Shown piece by piece: positions 22,011 through 29,356 of a stretch of DNA of 64,000 nucleotides; position 1 is the stretch's first letter, and every line of letters starts with the position of its first letter. A program made the position numbers and the translations under genes. Source of the DNA: Fimbriimonas ginsengisoli Gsoil 348. GTDB taxonomy: Bacteria; Armatimonadota; Fimbriimonadia; Fimbriimonadales; Fimbriimonadaceae. The notes beneath the pieces were generated by a model that was not told where the DNA came from, did no database searches, and was given only the letters and a program-made list of their open reading frames with translations. The stretch lies in contig CAMCVK010000001.1 in the NCBI GenBank assembly GCA_945881865.1, positions 186,001 to 250,000 of the forward strand. The letters run 5' to 3'.

Positions 22011-23027
22011 TCAGCCCGGGTGGCCGCCGGCCGACCACAGGCCGGTGGTTTCTAGGAGTCCAAGTGCCAGGTTCATGTTCTGAACCGCCTGGCTGGCCAT
22101 GCCTTTAGCCAGGTTGTCCAGCGAGACGCCAATCGCCGCGAGGTTGCCTTGCGTTACGGCACCGATGTCAACAAAGTTCGAGCCGATGGTTGGCAGTAGT
22201 CGAGGCAACTCCGGCCGAACCCGCACGAAGGGAGAGTTCTCGTACAGTTCTGCGATGGATTCCGAAGACCAACCCGGCGGCCGCCGAAACTGGATCGTGA
22301 TCGAAATTCCGCGCACCAGCGGGGCCGAATGCGGCACGAACGAGACCTCCAGCGGCATGTCGCGCTCCACCAGAAACTGCTCCACCTCGGCCATGTGCTG
22401 ATGCGCAAGCGGCTTGTAGGCTCGAAAGTCGTGCGCGCGGGTCGGATGGTGCGTGCCCTCGCCGGGGTTCATGCCGCTGCCGGACGATCCGGTAACGCCG
22501 GAAATAGCGACGAAATCGACGTCCTGCCCCACCAGCGGAAGCAGCCCGATCTGGAGCGCAGTCGCGAAACAACCGGGGTTGGCAATGCGGCGCGAGTCGA
22601 CCGGCGGCGACACATCGGCCAGCCCGTAGTTCCACTGGCTGAGCAGCTCTGGGCAAGGGTGCGGCTTCTTGTAATGGTCAGCGTAGAGATCGGGGTCGGC
22701 AATCCGAAAGTCCGCGCTCAGGTCAATCACCGTGGCCTCCCCCAGGAAACCATCCGGCCACGCGGCATACATCGGCGCAAACTCGCCATGCGGCATCACG
22801 GCAAAAACCACGGGATATTCGCAGTCGTGCAGCCAAGCCCAATCTGGCTCGGCATCAAACTCGCCGTTGATCAGTTTCGTCAGGTTCGGATGGACCGCGC
22901 CAAATGGCTGCCCCGCGTGCCGTCGCGACGTACCGCGAATGCCCTCCACCGACGGATGGTCGGCAAGCCAGCGTAAAAGTTCGCCGCCGCCGTAGCCCGA
23001 GGCCCCGAGAATGAGGGCGCGGATCAT
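22011..23027 (-). CDS. argC: N-acetyl-gamma-glutamyl-phosphate reductase
   Basis: 338 aa. NADPH-dependent reduction of acyl-glutamyl-phosphate to the semialdehyde. The N-terminal Rossmann motif 'LILGASGYGGGELLRWL' and the active-site Cys in 'NPGCFATALQIGLLPL' are clear, with 'GVTGSSGSGMNP' and 'FVPHSAPLVRGI' further on. It is the last gene of the seven-gene arginine operon; its ATG overlaps the stop of the P-loop gene (ATGA). Confidence 0.95.
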   Translation of the reverse strand: MIRALILGASGYGGGELLRWLADHPSVEGIRGTSRRHAGQPFGAVHPNLTKLINGEFDAEPDWAWLHDCEYPVVFAVMPHGEFAPMYAAWPDGFLGEATVIDLSADFRIADPDLYADHYKKPHPCPELLSQWNYGLADVSPPVDSRRIANPGCFATALQIGLLPLVGQDVDFVAISGVTGSSGSGMNPGEGTHHPTRAHDFRAYKPLAHQHMAEVEQFLVERDMPLEVSFVPHSAPLVRGISITIQFRRPPGWSSESIAELYENSPFVRVRPELPRLLPTIGSNFVDIGAVTQGNLAAIGVSLDNLAKGMASQAVQNMNLALGLLETTGLWSAGGHPG

Positions 23028-24076
23028 GCGCGGGCGATCTTCCCCCGCACCCGCTCGAGCACGAATGCGCTGAACTCATCGGCGCGGGACCGGGCATTGA
23101 TGGCGCGCACGCCGAAGTTCTGCTCGACGAACCGGGTACCGACCGCGTTGTCGGTAGCCGGTCCGGCGACGACGTCTACCGTGATTCCAAACGCCTCTTG
23201 CAGGTAGCGAATGCCGCCAGAAACCCCGACCGGGTCGTTTGCGCAGAGAATGAACGCCGCCGAGTGCTGCATCAGTTCATTGTCGGCCAAAATCGCCTGC
23301 ACGCCATATTCGCCCATGATTCCGTCGCCAGTCTCGGCCACGATCACGTCGGCTCCGCGCGAAGTGAGCTCAGTGAACACCGACCGGGCGGTCTGGGTCG
23401 AACTGGTTTCCGAAGAGGCCGTGACGCCCGTGTCGGTAAAGTCCAGGCTCCATTCGGCCCCGTAATCCTCCATGCTGAGGATGTCGCGGTAGAGCGAAAC
23501 GCCGGTGAGCTTTGCGCCGCCGACCCGAAACCCGGCCTGGGTCAGCTTGCGCACGAGTTGGCAAGCCGCCGCCGTCTTGCCCGCGTTCATGCATGTCCCG
23601 GCGATGTAGATGACCGGCGTTGCCGGGACCGTCGGTGACGCCGTGATCGACGCCTGACCGATGTTGGCCGGTCGCCCAACGCGACTCTCGAACTCTGGAA
23701 ACACCTGCACCTGGCCCAGAATTTCTAGCTCGAACGGCGCTCCCACGTCCCGGTTGAACGAAACACAACGGCCGATGACCCCACCAAGATTCAGCAGATT
23801 CAGCGTCTCGCCGACCTGAACCGACTCGGGCAGCACGCCTTCGTAGCCGTGAAGCGCATTTCGGTGCCCGAGGGCACCCACGATCAGATCGCCGCTGTGC
23901 AGGGTGCTCATCCGGCCGTGAACATCTTCGATCTGGTTGTAGGTCTGCTTGTCGTTTTGAACGCGGCCGACCAGCACCGAGCCGTGCTCGGCGACGATTG
24001 TGCCGTCCACGGTCAATGATTTTGCCAACCGGAGGTTCCGCGTGACCGAAGCGATCTTGTCGACGGAAAGTCGCAT
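23024..24076 (-). CDS. Unrecognised P-loop NTPase inside the arginine operon
   Basis: 350 aa from ATG 24076, overlapping the argG stop (TGATG). Residues about 1-135 form a beta-rich domain ('TVDGTIVAEHGSVLVGRV', 'SGDLIVGALGHRNALHGYEG'). From about 150 comes a SIMIBI-type P-loop, 'IAGTCMNAGKTAAACQLVRKL', then a BioD/MobB/DUF1611-like pattern: 'GGAKLTGVSLYRD', 'ADVIVAETGDGIMGEYG' and 'FILCANDPVGVSGG'. I do not recognise a named family and no arginine-pathway step is known to need such a protein. Its position, coupled on both sides to argG and argC, suggests a role in arginine metabolism or its control. Longer in-frame extension (to 24733) is antisense-type shadow of argG. Confidence 0.75.
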   Translation of the reverse strand: MRLSVDKIASVTRNLRLAKSLTVDGTIVAEHGSVLVGRVQNDKQTYNQIEDVHGRMSTLHSGDLIVGALGHRNALHGYEGVLPESVQVGETLNLLNLGGVIGRCVSFNRDVGAPFELEILGQVQVFPEFESRVGRPANIGQASITASPTVPATPVIYIAGTCMNAGKTAAACQLVRKLTQAGFRVGGAKLTGVSLYRDILSMEDYGAEWSLDFTDTGVTASSETSSTQTARSVFTELTSRGADVIVAETGDGIMGEYGVQAILADNELMQHSAAFILCANDPVGVSGGIRYLQEAFGITVDVVAGPATDNAVGTRFVEQNFGVRAINARSRADEFSAFVLERVRGKIARA

Positions 24077-25269
24077 CAAGCCCCCGCCTGCGCTTTGCCC
24101 ACGAGGTACTGCCCTACCCCGAACACCTTGGCGAATCCAGCCGCTTCTTGACCAGTCCACAGCCGGTTCGACTCGCCGTAGCTGGCAACATCCGGGTTCA
24201 TTAACGAAAACTCGGACCGCACTCCCTGCACGGTGAAGCCGCGAGGATAGAGGAGCACGCGAACGTCGCCGGTTACAAACCGCTGGCTGCTGGTGAGGAA
24301 GGCCTCCAGGTCCCGCGCGAGCGGGTCGAAGAACTGCCCTTCGTGAAGCAAGGCGCCGTAGAGGTTGCCCAGCGATTCCTTCCAGAAAAGTTGCTTGCCG
24401 CTGAGGACGGCCTTTTCCAGTTCGCGGTGCGCGCCGATGAGCAAGTGCGCCGCCGGAGCTTCGTAGCCGATGCGGCCTTTGATGCCGAGGATCGTGTCGC
24501 CGAGGTGATGCCCACGCCCAACGCCAAACCTCCCGCCAAGCGCGTTCAACGTCTCGACCAACACAACCGGGTCCATCGCATGGCCATCGACCGCGACCGG
24601 CACACCGGCCGAAAACTGGATCGTGAGGTCCTGCGGTGCCAACTGAGTATCCACGCGGCCACCGGGAAACGCCTCTTCGGGCAGGGCATCCCACGTGCCC
24701 AGCGTCTCCCGGCCGCCGACGCTGGTTCCCCACATGCCTTCGTTCACGGAATAGTCCTTCGTTCGGGCCGGGAAGGTGAATCCGCGCTCCGCGAGGTAGT
24801 CGACCTCGGCCGCCCGGGAAAGGGCCAAGTCACGAATCGGCGTAACGATCTCGGCCTCCGGCGCCAACGCCCGGAAGGCAACGTCAAACCGAACCTGGTC
24901 GTTTCCGGCACCGGTGCTGCCGTGGGCGATGGCGGTCGCGCCAAGCTCTTTTGCGGCGGCCACCACGGCGGCGGCTTGGCAAACCCGCTCGGCCGATACG
25001 CTCAGCGGATATGCCTGGCCGCGAAGAACGTTTCCGTAGACAAGGTATCGGAGGTAATTCTGCCACAGGTCCGCCCGTGCATCTATGACCCGATGCGAGG
25101 AGGCACCAAGCCGGACGGCCAATTCGTCGATGCGTTGGCGCTCTTCCGCCGAGAAGCCGCCGGTATCAACCGTGACGGTGTGGACCGCGTACCCCTGCTC
25201 GCGCAGGTAGAGCACGCAGAAGGAGGTGTCGAGCCCCCCGGAAAACGCCAAAACGAGATTGCCTTTCAT
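24076..25269 (-). CDS. argG: Argininosuccinate synthase
   Basis: 397 aa. ATP-dependent ligation of citrulline and aspartate. PP-loop 'LAFSGGLDTSFCVLYL' at residue 7, 'AHGSTGAGNDQVRFD', 'PIRDLALSRAAEVDYL' and 'SVNEGMWGTSVGGRE' are family signatures. A 22-nt gap separates it from the upstream deacetylase gene, the only gap of any size within the operon. argH is not in the window. Confidence 0.96.
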   Translation of the reverse strand: MKGNLVLAFSGGLDTSFCVLYLREQGYAVHTVTVDTGGFSAEERQRIDELAVRLGASSHRVIDARADLWQNYLRYLVYGNVLRGQAYPLSVSAERVCQAAAVVAAAKELGATAIAHGSTGAGNDQVRFDVAFRALAPEAEIVTPIRDLALSRAAEVDYLAERGFTFPARTKDYSVNEGMWGTSVGGRETLGTWDALPEEAFPGGRVDTQLAPQDLTIQFSAGVPVAVDGHAMDPVVLVETLNALGGRFGVGRGHHLGDTILGIKGRIGYEAPAAHLLIGAHRELEKAVLSGKQLFWKESLGNLYGALLHEGQFFDPLARDLEAFLTSSQRFVTGDVRVLLYPRGFTVQGVRSEFSLMNPDVASYGESNRLWTGQEAAGFAKVFGVGQYLVGKAQAGA

Positions 25270-25291: not shown

Positions 25292-26335
25292 TTACGCGAC
25301 CCGGAAGAGCCGCCGAGCCGCCTCTGCGTAGAAGCGAACCCCGGCTTCCAATTCCGCGGCCAGCAGATATTCGTTGGGGGTGTGGCTGCGCTTGGTGTCG
25401 CCGGGACCGACCTTCACCGCCGGAATGTCGCCCAAGAACGCCCAATCGGAAACCGTCGCCGATCCGACCGGCTCGGGCGACGGCGACGCGGCGAGGGCGG
25501 CTTTTGCCAGCGGATGATCGTGCGAGATCGATTTCGGCAGGTAGCGCTCGCTGTGAACGATGATCTTGGTCTCGAGGGTTTCCCGAAGCTGCGTCGCCAG
25601 TTCGGTGTGGTCCAGGTTCGGCGTCGTTCGAAAATCGACAAAAAACTCGCAGCGGTCCGGGATGACATTGCGCATCTTTCCGCCCTGAATCACCGCTACC
25701 TGCGCGCGGGTCTCGCCCAAAACGGGGTCAGGCTCAAACCGCAACGCCTCCAGCCGAACGATGTCCCGCGCCGCTTTGTGGATAGCATTCTCGCCGAGAT
25801 GGCCGTGGGCGACGTGGGCACTCACGCCCTCCGATTCGCACCGAAAAAGCAGCATTCCCCGCTGCGCGGTGCAAACGTTCAGGCTCGTCGGCTCACCGAC
25901 GAACGCGCCTTCGAACTCGCCAAGCTGCGGAAGCAGCCGCGAAATCCCGTCTGGGCCACCGTTTTCCTCCTCGGCGGTGAGCGCGACGACGACGCGGCCG
26001 TGATCGAGTCCGGCCAATTCTCGCGCAGCAAACAGCATGGCCGTCCCGCAGCCCTTCGCGTCGTTGGCACCGAGGGCGGTCAGCTTGCCGTCGATCCACT
26101 CGCCCGCGAACGGGTCAACGTTCCAGCCTTCGCAGACGGCGACCGTGTCGAGATGGCTCACCATTAGGATTCGCGGCCCGGTAGTGCCGATTTCAAACCA
26201 AACGTTGTTGCCGTCTCGCACTGGCTCCAGTCCCCAACCGGAAACCGTTTCGAAAACCAGCGTCGCCGCCGCGTCCTCATGACGACTAAAGCTCTGCGTT
26301 TGGACGAACCGGGACAGAAACTGACCCGGGCTCAC
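25292..26335 (-). CDS. argE: M20 deacetylase of the arginine operon (ArgE / acetylcitrulline deacetylase type)
   Basis: 347 aa, GTG start at 26335 overlapping the argB stop (GTGA). Zinc-peptidase motifs: 'MVSHLDTV', 'GANDAKGCGTAM', 'ALTAEEENGGPDG', 'VGEPTS' and a late His in 'KRSHTPNEY'. In this operon the transcarbamylase is of the acetylornithine kind. The natural substrate is therefore more likely N-acetylcitrulline than N-acetylornithine, as in Xanthomonas. A LysK-like role on a carrier-protein-bound substrate is the alternative, but no LysW-like carrier gene is seen. Confidence 0.82.
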   Translation of the reverse strand: MSPGQFLSRFVQTQSFSRHEDAAATLVFETVSGWGLEPVRDGNNVWFEIGTTGPRILMVSHLDTVAVCEGWNVDPFAGEWIDGKLTALGANDAKGCGTAMLFAARELAGLDHGRVVVALTAEEENGGPDGISRLLPQLGEFEGAFVGEPTSLNVCTAQRGMLLFRCESEGVSAHVAHGHLGENAIHKAARDIVRLEALRFEPDPVLGETRAQVAVIQGGKMRNVIPDRCEFFVDFRTTPNLDHTELATQLRETLETKIIVHSERYLPKSISHDHPLAKAALAASPSPEPVGSATVSDWAFLGDIPAVKVGPGDTKRSHTPNEYLLAAELEAGVRFYAEAARRLFRVA

Positions 26336-27219
26336 GCAGTTTCGTCTCGCCGAATCATTGTGCCCGCGCCCTCATTCGTAAAGACCTCAATCAGAAGGCT
26401 GTCGGGGGCGTAACCACCGACCAAGTGGACCGACTTCACGCCCGCCGCAAGCGCGTTCTTTACCGCCGCAAGCTTGGGCCGCATGCCGCCGCTCACCGCA
26501 CCGGAGGCCACCATCTCTTCGGCCTCGCTCTCCCAAAGGAACGGAATAAGCGAGTTCGGCTGATGCGCGTCGCGCAGCAAACCCGGCACGCGCATCACGA
26601 ACATCAGCTTCTCGGCGTCGATCGCCCCGGCGACGTGTGCCGCCACGGTGTCCGCATTCGTGTTGAAAAGTTGGCCGCTTGCCGTTGCGGTAAGGGGCGC
26701 GATCACCGGAACGTAGCCGCCCGCAAGCAAGTGATAAATCAGCGCCGGATCGACTCGCTCGACATCGCCGACGAGACCAAAGTCGACCGTCTGAAGGCCG
26801 TCTTCGGTCTCAAGCGTCATCGGTGGCCGTTGGCTCGCCTCAATGAGGCCGGCATCAAGGCCAGAAATCCCCACCACCGGAAGCCCGACCTCACGCAAGA
26901 CGCTGAGAAAATCGAGGTGCGCGACGCCGCCCAAGGCCATCTTGACGACTTCAAGTCCCTCGGGAGTCGTCACGCGCCGCCCGGCGACCTTCGGGGTCTC
27001 GACATTCAGCCGTTCTGCAAGACCATCCACCGCCGTCCCGCCGCCGTGCACCAGCACGACGCGGATGCCGAGGTGCCACATCAGGGCGATCTGCTCGCCG
27101 ACGCTGCGGGTGGCTCCCGCCGAATCCAGAACTTCCCCGCCGAGCTTGACGACGAAGATCTTGTCGCGGAACTTACCGACGTACGGAGCGGCGGTGCGCA
27201 GTGCCGTCATGCCGTTCAT
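26332..27219 (-). CDS. argB: Acetylglutamate kinase
   Basis: 295 aa from ATG 27219, which overlaps the argF' stop (ATGA). Amino-acid-kinase fold: 'FVVKLGGEVL', 'VVLVHGGGTAVDGLAERL', 'NTNADTVAAHVAGAI' and 'GGMRPKLAAVKNAL'. Phosphorylates N-acetylglutamate. Not fused to an acetyltransferase domain, unlike the ArgB of Xanthomonas, so the acetylglutamate synthase must be elsewhere. The longer in-frame reading to 27450 is antisense-type shadow of argF'. Confidence 0.92.
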   Translation of the reverse strand: MNGMTALRTAAPYVGKFRDKIFVVKLGGEVLDSAGATRSVGEQIALMWHLGIRVVLVHGGGTAVDGLAERLNVETPKVAGRRVTTPEGLEVVKMALGGVAHLDFLSVLREVGLPVVGISGLDAGLIEASQRPPMTLETEDGLQTVDFGLVGDVERVDPALIYHLLAGGYVPVIAPLTATASGQLFNTNADTVAAHVAGAIDAEKLMFVMRVPGLLRDAHQPNSLIPFLWESEAEEMVASGAVSGGMRPKLAAVKNALAAGVKSVHLVGGYAPDSLLIEVFTNEGAGTMIRRDETA

Positions 27220-28196
27220 GCGCCACCTTTCAGTCGGTCCAGGATCACGCGCTGTACGTGGAAACGGTTCTCGGCTTCGTCGATCACGTGCGAACGTGGG
27301 CCATCCAGCACGGTTTCCGAAACCTCCAGGTTCCGGCGAACGGGCAGGCAGTGGCAGAAGATAGCGTCGCGGTGCATCATGTCGAAATCCGAATCTCGGG
27401 TCATCCAGTCTTCGAGACGCACTTCGGCGGTTCCGTCGGTGGGTCCCCACGCCTTGGCGTAAAGAACTTTGCTTCCGGCGGCAGCTTCGGCACGATCTCG
27501 TAGAACGGACACTTTACCGCCCGTTGCGCGGGCGTATTCGTGTGCCTGCTCGAGGACGCTCGGCGCAAGGTCAAACCCCTCCGGATGAACCACCCGAACG
27601 TCGCACCCGCTGGCCGCCGCGGAAAGCAAGAACGAGTTGGGAACCGCGCGCGGTAACCGCTTGATGTGCGGCGCCCAGGTGAGGGTGACCGGCAAATTCT
27701 GCAGGTCGCCAAAATTCTCCCGCACCGTCAACATATCGGCAAGCCCCTGGCAGGGATGCTCCCTCGCGCTTTCCATGCTGATGACGGGCACGCCGGCGAA
27801 ACGCCGAAAGGCGTTGATGACGCTGTCGGCATCATCCGCATCGAGCCCACCGCCATCCGAGAACGCCCGGACGGCCAGGAAATCGGTGTAGCGGCCGAGC
27901 ACCGGAACCGCTTCGCGCAGGTGTTCGGTCAGGTCGCCGTCCATGACCACGCCGTCGCGACTTTCGAGCCGCCAAACTCCGTTGCCGACTTCGAGCACGA
28001 TGGCGTTTCCGCCGCCACGAATCATCGCTGCTTCAAAACTGGTCCGAGTTCGCAGGCTCGGGTTGAAGAAAACCATGCCCAGGATGCGTCCGGCGAGGTG
28101 ATGCCCGGGAGCGTTCGCCTTCCAGGCGACGGCCTGATCCAGGACTTCTTGAACGCCTTCGGGGCCAAGATCTGCAATGTGAGTGAAATGCTTCAT
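27216..28196 (-). CDS. argF': N-acetylornithine carbamoyltransferase (AOTC type)
   Basis: 326 aa. Carbamoylates N-acetylornithine to N-acetylcitrulline. The carbamoyl-phosphate motif reads 'FFNPSLRTRTSFE' instead of the STRTR of ordinary OTC. It is followed by a W-x-x-E-x3-G-x-VMDG stretch, 'HPCQGLADM', 'LTWAPHIKRLPRAVPNSF', 'YAKAWG', 'FCHCLPVRRN' and 'IDEAENRFHVQR'. These match the Xanthomonas-type acetylornithine enzyme rather than OTC. The Glu in W-x-x-E lines up by eye with Glu92, which in the literature distinguishes acetyl- from succinyl-ornithine specificity (recalled, not checked). Coupled by ATGA overlaps to both neighbours. Confidence 0.88.
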   Translation of the reverse strand: MKHFTHIADLGPEGVQEVLDQAVAWKANAPGHHLAGRILGMVFFNPSLRTRTSFEAAMIRGGGNAIVLEVGNGVWRLESRDGVVMDGDLTEHLREAVPVLGRYTDFLAVRAFSDGGGLDADDADSVINAFRRFAGVPVISMESAREHPCQGLADMLTVRENFGDLQNLPVTLTWAPHIKRLPRAVPNSFLLSAAASGCDVRVVHPEGFDLAPSVLEQAHEYARATGGKVSVLRDRAEAAAGSKVLYAKAWGPTDGTAEVRLEDWMTRDSDFDMMHRDAIFCHCLPVRRNLEVSETVLDGPRSHVIDEAENRFHVQRVILDRLKGGA

Positions 28197-29356
28197 GCAG
28201 CCAACTCCGCCGAAAATGCGCTGACGCTCGCCAGGAACTCAGCGATGCCTTCGTCCGAAAGCGTGAGCGGCGGCAGCAAGCGGAGCACCTCGGGATTGTG
28301 TGACCCGCCAACCAAGATACGGTTATCGAGCAGCCGCTTCTTGAGCGCGGCCGCGTATTCTCCAACATGGAGCCCTAGGAGCAGACCGGCCCCGCTGACG
28401 CTCGTCACCACGCTTCCCGCTAATCCGAGCCTGATCTTTTCCTCCGCAGCGTTGGCGCGTGCGGAAAGCTGCTCGGCCACTAAAACCTCAAGCGTCGCCA
28501 AAAGCGCGGCGCAGGCAATAGGTCCGCCACCGAACGTCGAACCCAAATCACCCGGCTTGATTCCGGTGGCAAGCGCTTCGTTAAGGATCACCGCGCCCAT
28601 CGGCACGCCGGAAGCGATGCCCTTGGCGACGGTCGTGATGTCAGGATCGACGTCGAAGTACCCGCTGGCGAAAGGTGTTCCCAGCCGGCCGAATCCGGTT
28701 TGGATCTCGTCGAAAATCAGCACCGTCCCGCTCGCATCGCACTTACGGCGCAGAGCCTGTAGAAACGGTTTCGAAGCCATCACGATGCCGGCCATCGACT
28801 GCACCGGCTCCAAGATCACGGCGGCAGCGTCCGAAAAATCCGCCGCGTCCAGGGCCGCCAAATCGTTCCACGGCAGCATCTCTGCCGGGGCCAAGAGGTC
28901 TTCGTATCCCGCCCGAATCTTCGGATCGTCGGTGACCGAAAGACCGAGAATTGAGCGACCGTGCCAGCCGCCGGTGAAGCTAACGAATCGCTTTCGCCCG
29001 GTGGCCTTTCGAGCGATCTTCAGGGCGTTTTCGTTCGCCTCGGCTCCGGAATTCACAAAGAACACGCTCGTCGCCTTTCGTCCGGCAAACCGAACCAGGG
29101 CCTCGGCGGCACGCTCGCGAATGTCGAGCCGCCCAGCTGTCGAATAAAAAATTATGCTTGAAGCCTGGGTCTGAATCGCCGCGACGACCGTCGGGTGACA
29201 ATGCCCCGTTACGCAAACGCAGTGGCCACCGTAAAGGTCCAAGTAGGCATTTCCGTCGGTGTCCCAGATCCGCTCGCCCTTCCCGGATGCAATCGTAAAG
29301 GGGAACGGGGGGTAGGTTGGGAGGAGGGCGGGAAACGGCATCGAGCTGTACGGCAA
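28193..29356 (-). CDS. argD: Acetylornithine aminotransferase
   Basis: 387 aa, first gene of the operon. Class III PLP enzyme: 'YLDLYGGHCVCVTGHCHP', 'FVNSGAEANENALKIAR', 'FTGGWHGRSILGLS', 'LIFDEIQTGFGRLG', and the PLP Lys245 in 'TTVAKGIASG'. Transfers an amino group from glutamate to N-acetylglutamate semialdehyde. The start is ATG 29356 or ATG 29341, five codons later. The 122-bp gap to the divergent FHA gene must hold the operon promoter, which I could not define. Confidence 0.92.
   Translation of the reverse strand: MPYSSMPFPALLPTYPPFPFTIASGKGERIWDTDGNAYLDLYGGHCVCVTGHCHPTVVAAIQTQASSIIFYSTAGRLDIRERAAEALVRFAGRKATSVFFVNSGAEANENALKIARKATGRKRFVSFTGGWHGRSILGLSVTDDPKIRAGYEDLLAPAEMLPWNDLAALDAADFSDAAAVILEPVQSMAGIVMASKPFLQALRRKCDASGTVLIFDEIQTGFGRLGTPFASGYFDVDPDITTVAKGIASGVPMGAVILNEALATGIKPGDLGSTFGGGPIACAALLATLEVLVAEQLSARANAAEEKIRLGLAGSVVTSVSGAGLLLGLHVGEYAAALKKRLLDNRILVGGSHNPEVLRLLPPLTLSDEGIAEFLASVSAFSAELAA

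Follow-up and report, generated by a model that had tools for sequence, protein, structure and literature searches.

A SIMIBI P-loop protein of bacterial arginine operons is a candidate for the first enzyme of arginine synthesis

We propose that the protein encoded between argG and argC in DNA from Fimbriimonas ginsengisoli Gsoil 348 is the first enzyme of arginine synthesis, an N-acyl-L-glutamate synthase (the acyl group being most likely succinyl) that has a SIMIBI P-loop fold and belongs neither with the GNAT enzymes nor with ArgJ. Comparative sequence evidence makes this role likely for the gene and its product, both of which we call X, and X-bearing arg operons are found in bacteria of about eight phyla. 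Proteins that are unrelated or have diverged widely have taken on the first step of arginine synthesis again and again, and the genome annotations of many lineages still show a gap there. If the proposal is true, X would close the first-step gap in many bacteria, among them cultured members of Myxococcus, Corallococcus and Geothrix, and the succinylated route to arginine known from Bacteroidetes would reach several more phyla; if X is ATP-dependent, it would also bring new chemistry to this step. The proposed role is a clear prediction, checkable with one purified protein.

Results

In the 64,000-nucleotide stretch that was analyzed (the window), X occupies positions 23024..24076 of the reverse strand, an open reading frame of 350 residues with an ATG start. 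The Walker A motif GTCMNAGKT noted in the preliminary description is confirmed in its translation (23573..23599, reverse strand; residues 160-168, from G160, with the lysine at K167). X stands sixth in a closely packed operon, argD-argF'-argB-argE-argG-X-argC, whose genes all lie on the reverse strand. Family profile matches identify argD, the N-acylornithine aminotransferase gene (28193..29356), and argG, the argininosuccinate synthase gene (24076..25269), while argF' (27216..28196) encodes a knotted transcarbamylase of the N-acylornithine type (NF003384, 391 bits, cut-off 288) with a succinyl-type signature. The argB gene (26332..27219) encodes an N-acylglutamate kinase of 295 residues with no GNAT domain, argC (22011..23027) an N-acylglutamyl-phosphate reductase (TIGR01850, 288 bits, cut-off 233.6), and the argE-like gene (25292..26335) an M20 deacylase that we propose to be an N-succinylcitrulline desuccinylase. 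As had been described from the first reading, X shares codons with both of its neighbors: at the argG/X junction, GCT TGATG CGA in the window sequence, the TGA and the ATG have one nucleotide in common, and the X/argC junction, GC ATGA TC, is a four-nucleotide overlap. The argD/argF' and argF'/argB junctions also read ATGA and the argB/argE junction reads GTGA, with 22 nt between argE and argG. Neither argA nor argJ is present in this operon, argH does not lie in the 64-kb window, and a promoter and terminator scan gave sites no commoner than in shuffled sequences.

X is present in 34 of the 85 genomes of the GTDB family, it has orthologues at 40-70% identity across many phyla, and its synteny is kept, all of which makes a chance arrangement unlikely. 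In the order, every one of the 24 loci (window included) has X in an arg operon, adjoining argG and/or argC. The same holds for adjacency to argG and/or argC in all 80 of the best GTDB loci, out of at least 437 relatives in the scan, so that lower-ranked relatives may differ; the full argG-X-argC sandwich is seen in 69 of the 80, and these matches span Acidobacteriota, Myxococcota, Gammaproteobacteria, Planctomycetota, Elusimicrobia, Gemmatimonadota and others. X orthologues are thus nearly always found inside arg operons, and no named family claims X, so that neither of the two outcomes which the preliminary description gave as refuting it was obtained. Among 25 representative operons, the genes recurring on the sense strand are argB, argF', argC and X (each 25/25), followed by argG (22), argD (21), argE (19), argH (19) and an argR-like gene (19), the last two having been named by reading the sequences. 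Together the genes of these 25 operons cover all steps from N-acylglutamate to arginine, the formation of N-acylglutamate being the sole step without a gene and X the sole gene without an assignment. From this position in the first-enzyme gap, X is likely to be an enzyme of a new kind, one that places the protecting group on glutamate.

The preliminary description had offered a regulator and a metal insertase among its guesses, and both survive as weaker rivals only. The translational coupling of X with arg genes and its nucleotide-binding fold would suit a protein that senses or regulates arginine synthesis, but an argR-like gene is already present in most X operons, catalytic-type residues are conserved in X, and exclusion of the known first enzymes is not what one would expect of a regulator; we consider this reading very improbable.

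Two observations concern individual records. In G238, an otherwise complete genome, a frameshift divides X in two (L023, L029; G238:C1:1407921-1408942), either through sequencing error or through decay. X operons resembling those of Armatimonadota, Myxococcota and other lineages also occur in records that bear the names Methanoregulaceae archaeon, Comamonas sp. and Klebsiella pneumoniae (L134, L091 and L120), and these genomes are probably mislabelled or contaminated.

The known first enzymes and X exclude one another. In the family, X (34/85) and ArgJ (32/85) never occur together (Fisher test, 2.5e-10), and in the Xanthomonas-like order (around genome G277) X proper, found in 9 of 121 genomes if G328 with only a C-terminal fragment is counted, does not overlap with the NAGS-kinase GNAT domain PF04768, found in 102 of them (8e-9); both Fisher tests ignore shared ancestry. 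The genus g1 holds both states, with X in the window genome, G214, G220 and G255 and ArgJ in most others, and so the exclusion of X and ArgJ does not reflect a single ancestral split. ArgJ is absent from the window genome and from all 15 X-bearing genomes of other groups, and no ArgA scores above cut-off in 27 X-bearing genomes, where the strong matches are ArgB. The preliminary description held that no arginine step of the textbook pathways needs X; with neither ArgA nor ArgJ nor the NAGS-kinase fusion present, the first step does. Of its several guesses, the evidence selects the supply of a missing activity such as acetylglutamate formation, although the acyl group is probably succinyl rather than acetyl, and the earlier interpretation is partly supported overall.

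The window genome has 23 GNAT candidates, a true RimI among them, but none comes near the cut-off of a NAGS model, with 42.8 of 280 bits (CG3035 type) and 31.6 of 180 bits (PRK07922). A GNAT of an unlisted type, such as Bacteroidetes ArgA2, encoded elsewhere in the genome is a less likely but conceivable source of N-acylglutamate. X could then serve to recycle the released acid, by forming acyl-CoA or acyl phosphate, while an unrecognized GNAT makes N-acylglutamate; the number of GNAT candidates would allow for this, and SIMIBI enzymes do phosphorylate carboxylates. However, no GNAT family recurs in the 25 representative X operons, and with all of the GNATs of the window genome so far from the NAGS cut-offs we find acid recycling a very doubtful role for X.

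Some genomes have neither X nor ArgJ. Eight of these (G234, G241, G210, G230, G143, G181, G177 and G040) give weak ornithine-type transcarbamylase matches only, and may be arginine auxotrophs because X, ArgJ and a good transcarbamylase match are all missing; in five others (G161, G198, G235, G253 and G257) an ordinary OTC-like match is present.

The nature of the acyl group was approached through the transcarbamylase and the deacylase. Of the 34 X-bearing genomes in the family, 33 encode an acylornithine-type transcarbamylase (the G261 gene is partial, at 248 bits); the single exception, G267, is 72% complete, and the only family genome with this transcarbamylase but without X, G269, is 77% complete. 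In the Xanthomonas-like order the AOTCs of most genomes score about 490-653 bits, and the transcarbamylases of the X-bearing genomes 351-409 bits in eight of nine, G279 having none over threshold in its assembly. Acetylornithine and succinylornithine transcarbamylases are marked by Glu92, Asn185 and Lys302 (AOTC) and by A/S/P/V/Q, P and V/I/E at the same positions (SOTC), according to a 2015 review (PMC4581275). At these positions, in Xanthomonas numbering, the classic AOTCs of genomes that lack X have E, N and K in 30 of 30 cases. The X-linked transcarbamylases have A, V, P, Q, T or S at position 92 in 87 of 88 (a residue of the published list in 81), P at position 185 in 83, and E, V or I at position 302 in 75, with K302 kept in 13. 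The window ArgF' itself has T, P and E, of which T92 is outside the published SOTC list (PMC4581275), and its overall score is slightly nearer to the Xanthomonas AOTC (232 bits) than to the Bacteroides SOTC (204 bits).

For the ArgE-like deacylase of the window, the best PDB match is 3ct9 at 185 bits, well ahead of the acetylcitrulline deacetylase of Xanthomonas (2f7v, 58 bits); we take 3ct9 to be BT3549 of Bacteroides thetaiotaomicron. Genetic data for BT3549 point to an N-succinylcitrulline desuccinylase (PMC7311316). The SOTC-like residues together with the 3ct9-like deacylase make a succinyl route likelier than an acetyl one, and the product of X is most likely N-succinyl-L-glutamate. A place for X in an acetyl-type AOTC pathway was rejected, as genomes with classic AOTCs lack X.

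The two-domain layout given in the preliminary description is borne out by a confident AlphaFold2 model (pLDDT 95, pTM 0.92), with an N-terminal beta domain at about residues 1-150 and a SIMIBI P-loop domain at about 152-350. The modelled C-terminal domain has its best structural matches in DUF1611 proteins (2g0t, Z 17.5; 2obn, 15.7) and DgcN (7xrj, 14.9), with which CTP synthase (Z about 16-17) and BioD (about 16) are effectively tied; Foldseek matches also include HypB. The N-terminal domain is all-beta, and taken alone it has no convincing relative in the PDB (best Z 2.9, LexA/UmuD), which is no proof of a new fold. Sequence searches of Pfam, NCBIfam and the PDB gave matches of P-loop length only, the best being to the P-loop stretches of DUF1611, MobB and CbiA, and X, first described as an unknown protein, is claimed by no named family in these profile searches.

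The residues that never vary across 103 X orthologues include G160, G166, K167, K189, G192, D198, D204, E248, D251 and D281, and at T168 and T191 conservation is 98-99% (98% at T168). By sequence alignment, K189 and T191, which follow the P-loop, match K37 and S41 of BioD, and K167/T168, K189/T191, D198/D204 and E248 presumably correspond to the set of BioD residues that bind Mg-ATP and act in catalysis; D198/D204 and E248 are candidate Mg ligands of X. The conservation of these residues suggests ATP-driven acylation over CoA transfer, and if X is a synthase we lean slightly towards ATP rather than acyl-CoA as its energy source.

X might instead be an acyltransferase like DgcN, in which the P-loop would hold the phosphates of CoA while glutamate receives an acetyl or succinyl group from CoA; this is a variant of our preferred explanation, with a probability that overlaps with it. 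The DgcN entry 7xrj, deposited under the name of an N-acetyltransferase, shares the SIMIBI fold and appears in the list of structural matches of X, and acetyl-CoA is used by the known NAGS enzymes (PMC4490483). However, the Walker A motif of DUF1611/DgcN proteins is GTD..VGKM, which has no Mg-binding Thr or Ser, and they have no lysine at the position of K189, whereas X keeps both GKT and K189, as do BioD and CTP synthase, which use ATP. X and the DUF1611/DgcN proteins are also unlike in their N-terminal domains, and we hold acyl-CoA transfer to be unlikely, if far from negligible.

X also has paralogues, X2, in 15 genomes (16 loci) of the Xanthomonas-like order, at 92-199 bits to the X model and with an hhalign probability of 100, in which K167, T168, K189, T191, D198, D204, E248 and D281 are mostly kept. 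One group (L199, L201-L204) is coupled to an M20-type hydrolase gene outside arg operons, and the other (L192, L194-L198, L200) to an ABC transporter and an esterase-like gene; these two contexts suggest that the X family has more than one role. In the first group, X2 overlaps or abuts a CPG2/ArgE-like M20 peptidase gene (L203:9318-10337 and L203:10334-11521; L204:9685-11863), and at L196:9065-12668, L192:8913-13644 and similar loci X2 is also found with conserved outer-membrane-like proteins.

Because of the X2-M20 coupling, a SIMIBI maturation NTPase of the HypB, UreG or MobB type, loading metal into the M20 deacylase, stays a minor rival for the role of X. Such a role would fit the M20 metallohydrolase of X operons, the HypB structural matches and the similarity of single X members to MobB (7e-7), but it would leave unexplained why X replaces ArgJ and NAGS-kinase, and genomes with classic AOTCs do without X. 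We know of no chaperone requirement for M20 enzymes, and regard metal insertion as a highly unlikely function.

Discussion

Based on the conserved residues, and taking dethiobiotin synthetase, CTP synthase and formyl-tetrahydrofolate synthetase as analogues, we can present a working model for X as an N-acylglutamate synthase. Mg-ATP would be bound by K167/T168 and the acidic residues D198/D204 and E248, and succinate would be phosphorylated to an acyl phosphate intermediate. The amine of glutamate would then attack the acyl phosphate, with K189/T191 stabilizing the transfer, and the resulting N-succinyl-L-glutamate, protected by the N-acyl group, would pass to ArgB. Succinate freed from N-succinylcitrulline by the ArgE-like M20 enzyme could be reused by X. 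In its fullest form, which we offer tentatively as a real possibility, X would found a new enzyme class as an L-glutamate N-succinyl ligase with a SIMIBI P-loop fold that depends on ATP and forms ADP, starting arginine synthesis in about eight phyla and reusing the pathway's own succinate, with X2 proteins acylating other amino compounds.

Among proteins of the same fold, BioD and CTP synthase share with X the K/T/D/E pattern after the P-loop, and both use ATP to activate a carboxylate or carbonyl. Unlike them, X scores far below the family cut-offs (14.4 bits with the BioD model TIGR00347, cut-off 83.3), does not have an N-terminal domain in common with them, and is found in another gene context.

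DUF1611/DgcN proteins, the best structural match, also carry an N-terminal domain ahead of the SIMIBI P-loop domain, and the theme of glutamate N-acylation is common to both, DgcN being presumably a D-glutamate N-acetyltransferase (the title of 7xrj names an N-acetyltransferase). They differ from X in their Walker A motif, in having DUF1611_N, and in their partner, an enolase-type epimerase instead of arg genes. X reaches 13.4 bits with PF07755 (cut-off 25) and its orthologues in the family at most 23.1 bits in six-frame searches. The Rossmann-like DUF1611_N (PF17396) has no match in X but does match the separate true DUF1611 of the window genome, and an hhalign comparison of X with DgcN aligns 34 columns at 43% probability, a relation at the level of the fold only. 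We rejected X as a DgcN/DUF1611 enzyme given the score below cut-off, the other N-terminal domain and the 34 aligned columns. True DUF1611 is present in most genomes with or without X, and is therefore not its alternative. In the window genome the true DUF1611/DgcN gene overlaps an enolase-superfamily (dipeptide epimerase-like) gene (L055:7804-9868; G000:C2, about 176800-178870), which suggests a pair for D-glutamate or muropeptide salvage.

Other routes to arginine resemble the proposed one in part. The LysW/ArgX system, like X as proposed, protects the amine of glutamate by a non-GNAT protein (PMC4490483), but ArgX is a RimK-like ligase that uses a carrier protein. In the NAGS-kinase/AOTC pathway of Xanthomonas, as in X operons, carbamoylation precedes deacylation and argF' and argE lie in the operon; however, Xanthomonas has a GNAT synthase fused to ArgB and a transcarbamylase with E92, N185 and K302, and X-bearing genomes have neither. 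ArgA, NAGS-kinase, S-NAGS and ArgA2 all have the GNAT domain, for which Pfam and NCBIfam searches found no match in X, nor does X match PF01960 (ArgJ). A parallel in chemistry is the succinylated pathway of Bacteroidetes, which is like that of X in its proposed reaction and in its partners, an SOTC-type transcarbamylase and a desuccinylase (PMC9026213, PMC7311316). Its N-succinylglutamate synthase, ArgA2 (BT3761), is a GNAT protein (PMC9026213), whereas X is a two-domain P-loop protein without the GNAT fold, and X would be an unrelated replacement for it.
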